Under the pieces are notes generated by a model. That model was given only the letters and a program-made list of their open reading frames with translations. It was not told where the DNA came from and searched no databases. Positions 61,887-64,000 of a stretch of 64,000 bases of DNA are shown here, one piece after another. Origin of the DNA: Acidobacteriota bacterium (GTDB lineage Bacteria; Acidobacteriota; Terriglobia; Bryobacterales; Bryobacteraceae); assembly GCA_029776225.1 (NCBI GenBank), contig JAKOTR010000051.1, positions 1 to 64,000 of the forward strand. Direction: 5' to 3'. The translations under genes were made by a program, and so were the position numbers. The stretch's first letter is position 1. Each line of letters opens with the position of its first letter.

Positions 61887-64000
61887 ATGACTAATTCGTC
61901 AGTTCCAGCCGAAACTCTCGGTTCCCCATCTCCGGTCTCGGCCTCTTACCTCTGGGAGGCTCCGAATCAGGCGGTTTCGATTCAGATCAGCCTGGATGTC
62001 ATTGACCGCATAGAGCGCGAAGTGATCGACAGCTTCAAGGCCATCACCAAGCGCGGCTCTGAGGTCGGGGGCATCCTGCTCGGACGCATAGCACATGCCG
62101 GTAAGAGGACTGTGTTCGTCGAGAACTATGAGTCCGTTCCATGCGACTATGCCCGTGGCCCGCTCTATCTTTTGGCCGAAGCGGACATAGAACGGCTGCG
62201 CGAAACGCTCCAGCGCTTGAAAGGCAGCCCGCTTTCGGTGGTCGGGTTCTTTCGCAGCAACACACGCAAAGAACTGGTGCTGGACGAAGACGATCTGGCG
62301 CTGGCTCAGGAGTTCTTTTCCGATCCGAACCAGGTCTTCCTGCTCGTCAAGCCCTTCGCGATGAAACCAAGCCAGGGCGCTTTCTTTTTGTGGGAAGACG
62401 GCCGGCTTCAGACGGAAAGCCCCCTGCAGTTCCCGTTCCGGCGTTCCGAGCTGCAAAAGACGCCGCAAGCGATTGTGCAAGCCGGAGGCAGAGCGGGGGA
62501 CGCCGCTCCGCCTGCGCCGGCGCGCGAAGACCGCGCCCCCGTGGTCTTCCCGAAACGCGAGGAGAGGGCGGCGGCGCCGGTGTTCATAAAACGGGAAGAG
62601 CCCAGGCTCGGACCGGTCGTGGTCCCTCCCAAGCGGGAAGGGCCCGTAGTCGCCACGCCGCCGCCCCGCCAGGACCTGCCGCCGGTGAGAGTGGCCGCGC
62701 CCCCTCCGGCCGTATCCAAGCGGGAAGAGCCGGCTTCGCCCGAGGCCTCCGCGGCCGCGCCGGTGGTCCCGAAGCGCGAGGAACGCCCGCCTGTGCCGCT
62801 CACTTTCAAACGCGAGCAGCGGCCTGCTATTGTGCCCGTTCCGAAGCGTGAGGAGCGGCCCGCGCCGGTGCTGCCGAAACGCGAGCAGCGCCCACCGATA
62901 ACGCCGGTCAGCCTGAAGCGCGAGGAGAAGCCGGCGGTTGCCCCCAAGCAGGAAGAACCGCCCAAGAGCGAGGAGCGCCCGGCCGTCCAACCCGCCGCGA
63001 AGCGCGAAGAGGCAGCGCCTCCGCTTCCGCCCGTGGCAAAGGCTGAGAAGAAAGAGGAGCCGGCCGCTGCGTCCTCAACTTCCCAAGCGACTGTGGAACC
63101 TGCGGCTGCCGCCAAGACGGACGAACCCATCGCCGTACCGTTTCTGGCGGAAGAGCCAGCCAAACGCAGCGCCGGCCGTTGGGTCGCCATCATTCTGATC
63201 GTGCTGCTGGCCGTCGCCGCGGGCGTGTACTTCGGACTCATTCGCGGCAGACAGGCTCCTCCCCCTCCCGTGGATACGGCGCTGAACTTGAGGGTGGAGC
63301 GCAACGCGGGCCAACTGGTGCTCACCTGGAACCGCAACGCGCCCATCATCGCCAATTCTCAGAAATCCACGCTTTCCATCACCGACGGCGAACATCAGGA
63401 AGACGTCGAGCTGGACCCGGGAACGCTCCGCAGCGGCAGCATCGTCTACTCGCCGATCACAAACGACGTCAGCTTCCGGCTGGAAGTGAACGGGCAGGAT
63501 GGCACTCCAGTCAGCGAATCGGTCCGCGCGCTGGCGGGCCGTCCCTCGCCCTTGCAGAACATGCCGCCGCCGGCGGTTTCGGAAACCAGGACGCAGCCGG
63601 CCGCCACGACGCCGGCAGCCACTCCGGCCGCGCCTCAACAGCCGCCGGCCACAACCCAATCTTCGTCCGCTGGACAGGCCCAGCCCCAGGCGACAGTCGC
63701 GCAAACCCAGCCGCCGCCTGAGGACGAAGAAGAGCCACCGGTGCAGACTCGTGTGACGGCCGCTCCGCCCAAGCCTTTCTCCCTGGCCGCCCGCCTGAGG
63801 CCGGCTCAGCCGGCGGAGTTGGCCGCGCCCCCACAGATTCAGGGCGGGTCCACGCCGTCTGGAATCGCCGCCCGCCTGCTGCCGGGACAGTCAACCGCAG
63901 TCCCGCCGCCGCCTGCACCTCCGCCGGCGCCGGAACCCAAGCCGGTGGTTGGCGGTGTCGTCCAGGAACCCGTGTTGCTCGAGCGCGTTCAGCCCGTGTA
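61887..64000 (+). CDS. JAB-like/KRE-repeat/TonB-like fusion (cut by window end)
   Basis: At least 704 residues; the stop lies beyond the window. Residues about 30-170 look like a JAB/MPN domain: SEVGGILLG keeps the glutamate, but V118-N125 (VVGFFRSN) has R and N where the zinc histidines would be, so it is probably inactive. Residues 223-375 carry about eleven KRE/KQE units in a proline-rich linker. A single membrane helix follows (about 432-452, WVAIILIVLLAVAAGVYFGLI), then a beta-rich segment (465-545) and another proline-rich linker. The last visible residues (GGVVQEPVLLERVQPV) match the opening of a TonB C-terminal domain, so it may be an energy transducer with a cytoplasmic JAB-like module. 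The ATG has a strong GGGGGGAAGGAG six bases upstream. Confidence 0.7.
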   Translation, partial: MTNSSVPAETLGSPSPVSASYLWEAPNQAVSIQISLDVIDRIEREVIDSFKAITKRGSEVGGILLGRIAHAGKRTVFVENYESVPCDYARGPLYLLAEADIERLRETLQRLKGSPLSVVGFFRSNTRKELVLDEDDLALAQEFFSDPNQVFLLVKPFAMKPSQGAFFLWEDGRLQTESPLQFPFRRSELQKTPQAIVQAGGRAGDAAPPAPAREDRAPVVFPKREERAAAPVFIKREEPRLGPVVVPPKREGPVVATPPPRQDLPPVRVAAPPPAVSKREEPASPEASAAAPVVPKREERPPVPLTFKREQRPAIVPVPKREERPAPVLPKREQRPPITPVSLKREEKPAVAPKQEEPPKSEERPAVQPAAKREEAAPPLPPVAKAEKKEEPAAASSTSQATVEPAAAAKTDEPIAVPFLAEEPAKRSAGRWVAIILIVLLAVAAGVYFGLIRGRQAPPPPVDTALNLRVERNAGQLVLTWNRNAPIIANSQKSTLSITDGEHQEDVELDPGTLRSGSIVYSPITNDVSFRLEVNGQDGTPVSESVRALAGRPSPLQNMPPPAVSETRTQPAATTPAATPAAPQQPPATTQSSSAGQAQPQATVAQTQPPPEDEEEPPVQTRVTAAPPKPFSLAARLRPAQPAELAAPPQIQGGSTPSGIAARLLPGQSTAVPPPPAPPPAPEPKPVVGGVVQEPVLLERVQPV
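62553..63008 (+). repeat. KRE(E/Q) repeat-coding region
   Basis: About eleven copies of a Lys-Arg-Glu-Glu/Gln motif (one KQE) at irregular spacing of 8-20 residues, between prolines, within the linker of the fusion gene (residues 223-375). The repeat is protein-level; the DNA is only loosely repeated (AAGCGCGAGGAG-like). Confidence 0.8.

Follow-up and report, generated by a model that had tools for sequence, protein, structure and literature searches.

The open reading frame that begins at position 61887 of the forward strand, at the end of the DNA stretch analysed here (the window), raises the question of whether a TonB protein can carry a JAB domain in the cytoplasm and, if so, whether such a protein is still an energy transducer. 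MPN/JAB proteins are known for their part in protein-tag removal, and TonB is the motor arm of the outer membrane. We could not find any open-access paper on an MPN–TonB architecture or on the membrane protein family to which the fusion belongs, and the joining of both in one protein may be undescribed. The window comprises bases 1–64,000 of contig C63 (78,491 b), and its own genome amounts to 5.18 Mb in 115 contigs (97.7% complete).

The reading frame is real and still open at the window end (position 64000). Followed into the rest of the contig, it gives a full product of 779 aa, of which residues 702–777 form a TonB C-terminal domain (PF03544, 4.1e-19; TIGR01352, 1e-10) that can be aligned to the TonB domains of the PDB entries 2k9k (8e-8) and 1u07 (2e-7). 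The TonB assignment, which the initial annotation had based on 16 residues, was thus borne out by the extended frame. The other elements listed in that annotation were recovered as well, namely the KRE repeats (10 copies within residues 191–430, in a Pro/Ala-rich linker of 235 residues between the MPN domain and the helix), a single membrane helix at about residues 434–452, and a beta segment after it, which corresponds to a module at residues 460–552. About 430 residues, MPN domain included, lie on the predicted cytoplasmic side of the helix, and about 320 lie beyond it, enough to span the periplasm. An assembly artefact or a chance fusion is ruled out, because this layout recurs in one single frame in 24 proteins from 15 genera. 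The coordinates are collected in Table 1.

Table 1. Coordinates of the fusion gene and of its parts (window numbering; C63 positions refer to the whole contig).
Feature	Position	Strand	Basis or remark
JAB-like/TonB fusion gene	61887..64000	+	first 704 of 779 codons in the window; stop at C63:64226
MPN/JAB-fold domain at the N-terminus (residues 18-190; predicted cytoplasmic)	61938..62456	+	family profile against the PDB, AF2 model, Z scores
Glu59 codon, retained (matches the catalytic Glu of JAMM)	62061..62063	+	family alignment
Arg123-Ser-Asn125, replacing the JAMM His-x-His zinc ligands	62253..62261	+	alignment, family profile
Asp133 (replaces JAMM Ser) and Asp136 (JAMM Asp kept)	62283..62294	+	family alignment
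Linker rich in Pro/Ala, containing 10 KRE copies (residues 196-430)	62472..63176	+	
Single transmembrane helix, residues 434-452, without Ser-x3-His motif	63186..63242	+	
FN3/Ig-like beta-sandwich module, residues 460-552, family-specific	63264..63542	+	AF2 pLDDT 87; FN3-type Z 9-10
Pro-rich periplasmic spacer, residues 553-701	63543..63989	+	
Start of the TonB C-terminal domain (residues 702-777)	63990..64000, on to C63:64217	+	

Taken as a single sequence, the window protein stays below the Pfam threshold for a JAB domain (PF01398, E=0.05). This is too weak for a call, and a family profile and an AF2 model were therefore used instead. Two paralogs from the same genome, C62 and C80, do clear the PF01398 cut-off (3.6e-5 and 3.3e-6, respectively). 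Against the PDB, the 72-row family profile retrieved the Rpn11-like protein of Caldiarchaeum (6fjv, 1e-10), AMSH-LP (1e-6) and CSN5 (4e-6), and also Rpn11. The model of the N-terminal domain, built from the same 72-row alignment, has a pLDDT of 89 and displays the MPN alpha/beta fold. Its best structural matches are Cap3 (Z 13.8), Rpn11 (13.3), Caldiarchaeum Rpn11 (13.3) and P. furiosus JAMM1 (13.2), which are to be considered as tied, all lying within one Z unit; a Foldseek search with this model also pointed to the MPN fold. Profile and predicted structure thus agree with the JAB/MPN domain first read from the letters alone. The description of its site, with a catalytic glutamate but no zinc histidines, proved accurate too: Glu59 and Asp136 are kept, the first histidine (His-1) is replaced by Arg123 and the second (His-2) by Asn125, and Asp133 stands at the Ser position. 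The active JAMM signature (Glu...His-x-His...Ser-x2-Asp) is lacking from the fusion, whereas paralog C80 has it. Judged by this motif, the JAB/MPN domain of the fusion is dead, and the reading as an active JAB–TonB protease is rejected on the same ground.

Five paralogs in the genome share the N-terminal domain, the helix and a roughly 90-residue beta module: the fusion itself on C63, and C62, C14, C81 and C80. Only the fusion ends in a TonB_C domain. Paralog C80, encoded at L013:4817-6148 (-), is membrane-anchored, carries the FN3-like module and combines the full JAMM motif HSHTRSGIALSPRD with its Glu; its gene lies tail-to-tail with a BamA-like gene. It is predicted from its motif to be an active bacterial JAMM protease.

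At least one copy of the family core was found in 232 of the 257 genomes of the order, and in about 231 of 237 within the Bryobacteraceae; among named relatives, it is carried by Bryobacterales/Bryobacteraceae, Solibacter and Sulfopaludibacter. When 396 genomes were sampled evenly across the phylum, 21 of them gave a match, and the matches outside the Bryobacteraceae look for the most part like ordinary soluble JAMM proteins. The JAMM Glu and Asp are invariant in all 138 core members compared, including those without His-1. The His-1 position of these 138 is held by Arg in 80, His in 44 and Val in 12; at His-2, 119 members have His and 15 have Asn. With the variable motif columns left out, the tree has one branch (SH-aLRT 100) that splits a largely intact-JAMM clade, holding all the intact proteins, from an Arg clade, within which the TonB fusions present in the tree are nested; this is a quick tree, and its inner branches are less sure. 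In the Arg clade, the positions of Glu59 and Asp136 are kept in 100% of cases, and proteins from 15 genera share the pseudo-site pattern RSx-TRK...LDxxD. Both acids are maintained while Arg holds the His-1 position and, in 92% of the TonB fusions, Asp replaces the Ser; this suggests a site that has been rebuilt rather than one that is decaying, the Arg possibly substituting for zinc between the acids.

The survey for the same architecture yielded 24 TonB fusions from 23 genomes and 15 genera, all 24 with Arg at His-1, and no TonB_C domain was found in the 40 proteins with an intact JAMM site (E-HxH-S-D). The number of fusion-bearing genomes is not an unbiased rate; among 14 genomes that were not picked for carrying the fusion, three have it. 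The TonB_C domains show good conservation, including the QPVYP...RWRYRP pattern usual for this domain, and divergent heads are seen in two of the 24 (G594 and G601), the G594 head falling just below the Pfam TonB_C cut-off. Two distant proteins from another family of the phylum (L047 and L042) have only weak TonB_C-like tails according to our own profile, with no Pfam match, and were left out of the count.

On which side of the membrane these parts lie can be approached from the helix flanks. The flank that precedes the helix is the richer of the two in K/R in 98 family proteins, as against 14, which is consistent with an N-in/C-out topology for the fusion, and no signal peptide is apparent ahead of the MPN domain on reading the sequence. 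The AF2 model of the beta module (pLDDT 87) resembles FN3/Ig-like sandwiches (Z 9–10); Foldseek matches are weak (best E 1.5e-3), and a sequence search of this module against the PDB gave nothing significant. An FN3/Ig-like fold is nevertheless assigned to it on the model and these Z scores. Within the genome, the module is confined to the five JAB-like paralogs. A second type of head, of about 125 residues, takes the place of TonB_C in nine family members, mostly from the intact clade and with C81 among them, and the periplasmic heads thus look exchangeable. In the C81 paralog, encoded at L012:4151-5914 (-), this head is held in the C-terminal 130 residues.

The question of energisation can then be addressed. 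In TonB and TolA, a Ser-x3-His motif of the helix contacts ExbB or TolQ, and the His is essential (PMC12215075). None of the 24 fusion helices contains this motif, nor any His in the helix core, whereas the motif occurs in three other TonBs of this genome (SAIVH, SLLLH and SAIAH), and Gln takes the place of the His in two more (SFILQ and AVVGQ). Three ExbB and three ExbD genes are present in the genome, on contigs C14, C42 and C21; those on C14 and C42 adjoin other TonB_C genes, and none was found on C63, where the fusion lies. As a separate observation, the TonB_C genes at C40:109416-110004 and C21:145291-145443 have their domain carried on in another frame, which reflects frameshifts or assembly errors.

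The initial annotation as a possible energy transducer loses ground here, since the fusion has a TonB head but its helix is without the SxxxH motif, and no ExbB/ExbD lies nearby. The fusion does resemble the TonB energy transducers (PF03544/TIGR01352) in its TonB_C domain, complete and conserved, in its one helix, predicted to be N-in, and in the Pro-rich periplasmic spacer, the part past the helix being long enough for the periplasm. It differs from them by the cytoplasmic part with an MPN domain, by the FN3-like module, by the helix motif and by the lack of linked ExbB/ExbD. A true transducer would have to couple to ExbB/ExbD through its helix in a non-canonical way, with the MPN domain gating or localising it; the SxxxH motif, known from E. 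coli-type systems, may be dispensable here. The stock of ExbB and ExbD genes and at least 24 receptor plugs in the genome (24 plug domains score above the Pfam cut-off) would suit such a role, but the other paralogs have the same core without TonB_C, and we consider self-energised transduction unlikely.

Within its own genus, the fusion is followed on the same strand by a gene that would also speak for a transducer: a ZIP zinc permease, here 54 bp downstream (L009:7282-8037 (+); C63:64281-65036). Only one congener (L081/L186, 67% identity) has the same order, which was not found in the other genera examined, and the permease counts as a lead only. On its upstream side, the fusion is flanked by MurB and by a 335-aa ORF without Pfam match. 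Another neighbourhood is seen in the RSH/RSQ-type members, where a divergent gene, gene B, lies upstream in all 17 whose flanks were long enough (16 fusions, plus a protein ended by its contig before TonB_C could show). In the clear cases, gene B stands 50–210 bp from the fusion, usually followed by a TPR protein; in L171, L178, L200 and others, the pair is found about 50–2000 bp upstream of RSH-type fusions. Protein B, of about 590 aa where complete, has an N-terminal CxxC...C-x3-H arrangement resembling a zinc knuckle (CQLCG...CSREH) and a C-terminal beta domain, with no Pfam match. No match to protein B was obtained near the window fusion or anywhere in its genome, and the B–TPR pair was thus dropped as a partner of the window gene.

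A second alternative starts from the fold. The MPN domain could still bind C-terminal tails, ubiquitin-like or other, while leaving them uncut, and so recruit tagged cytoplasmic proteins to the envelope. Its nearest folds do belong to MPN proteins that handle ubiquitin or Ubl (Cap3, Rpn11 and JAMM1), and an intact-JAMM paralog, C80, with the full E-HxH-S-D set, is encoded in the same genome. Compared with the bacterial and archaeal JAMM proteases (Cap3, P. furiosus JAMM1 and Caldiarchaeum Rpn11), whose fold it has, the fusion is without either zinc histidine, and no adjoining Ubl/E1/E2 operon was noticed; an unsystematic look beside the five copies of the genome revealed no Ubl, E1 or E2 gene. 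The genome contains two ThiF/E1-like genes, but ThiF genes usually serve the sulfur carriers of thiamine and molybdopterin, and a match was obtained in 12 of 14 control genomes. Tail binding appears quite improbable on this balance. That the MPN domain would be a decaying relic, left over as a cytoplasmic plug on a TonB_C/FN3 protein that spans the envelope, is less probable still: zinc ligands have been lost repeatedly across the family, with R, V, I, L or E in place of His-1, but this hardly accounts for the invariant Glu and Asp, the pseudo-site pattern shared by 15 genera, or the retention of the domain in 24 fusions.

The reading that we prefer, tentatively and with a confidence somewhat short of even, is that of a trans-envelope MPN pseudoenzyme that carries a TonB head and would serve as a tether or sensor, probably not as a self-energised TonB; this function is inferred. 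The protein would be placed N-in/C-out, and its cytoplasmic MPN domain would have lost cutting and would bind a partner instead, with Arg123 occupying the metal site between the kept Glu59 and Asp136. The partner may be an intact paralog, as in the MPN+/MPN- pairs Rpn11/Rpn8 and CSN5/CSN6. At the other end, the TonB_C head would contact an outer-membrane receptor or another periplasmic partner, and the fusion would connect the outer membrane with the state of the cytoplasm, with no ExbB/ExbD drive of its own. The 24 receptor plug domains count in favour of the tether or sensor, as targets for the head to meet. Several points count against it: the TonB_C domain is as well conserved as would be expected of a working, energised TonB, the SxxxH motif may not be needed here, and the pairing of intact and Arg-clade copies, although found in most of 21 genomes, is missing in G466, G467, G471 and G490.

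Another close parallel is the Rpn8, CSN6 and Abraxas type (PF01398), which likewise associates an MPN fold and a degenerate JAMM site with an MPN+ paralog alongside. The fusion differs from this type in being bacterial and membrane-anchored, with FN3-like and TonB_C parts, and in the nature of its pseudo-site, where Arg stands at His-1 and both Glu and Asp are kept.

A broader scheme, speculative and distinctly unlikely as it stands, would be a Bryobacteraceae-wide signalling family, in which membrane-anchored MPN+ enzymes pair in the cytoplasm with Arg-plugged MPN- pseudoenzymes, while exchangeable periplasmic heads, TonB_C or other, report on the outer membrane or control it. If true, bacteria would have their own version of the Rpn11/Rpn8-type pairing, and it would be linked to TonB-dependent transport. 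Nearly all genomes surveyed in a large family of soil bacteria carry this protein family, with active-looking and dead copies together, and this provides a natural test of the roles of MPN pseudoenzymes in bacteria. The fusions also offer a test of whether TonB_C domains can serve as contacts without being energised.
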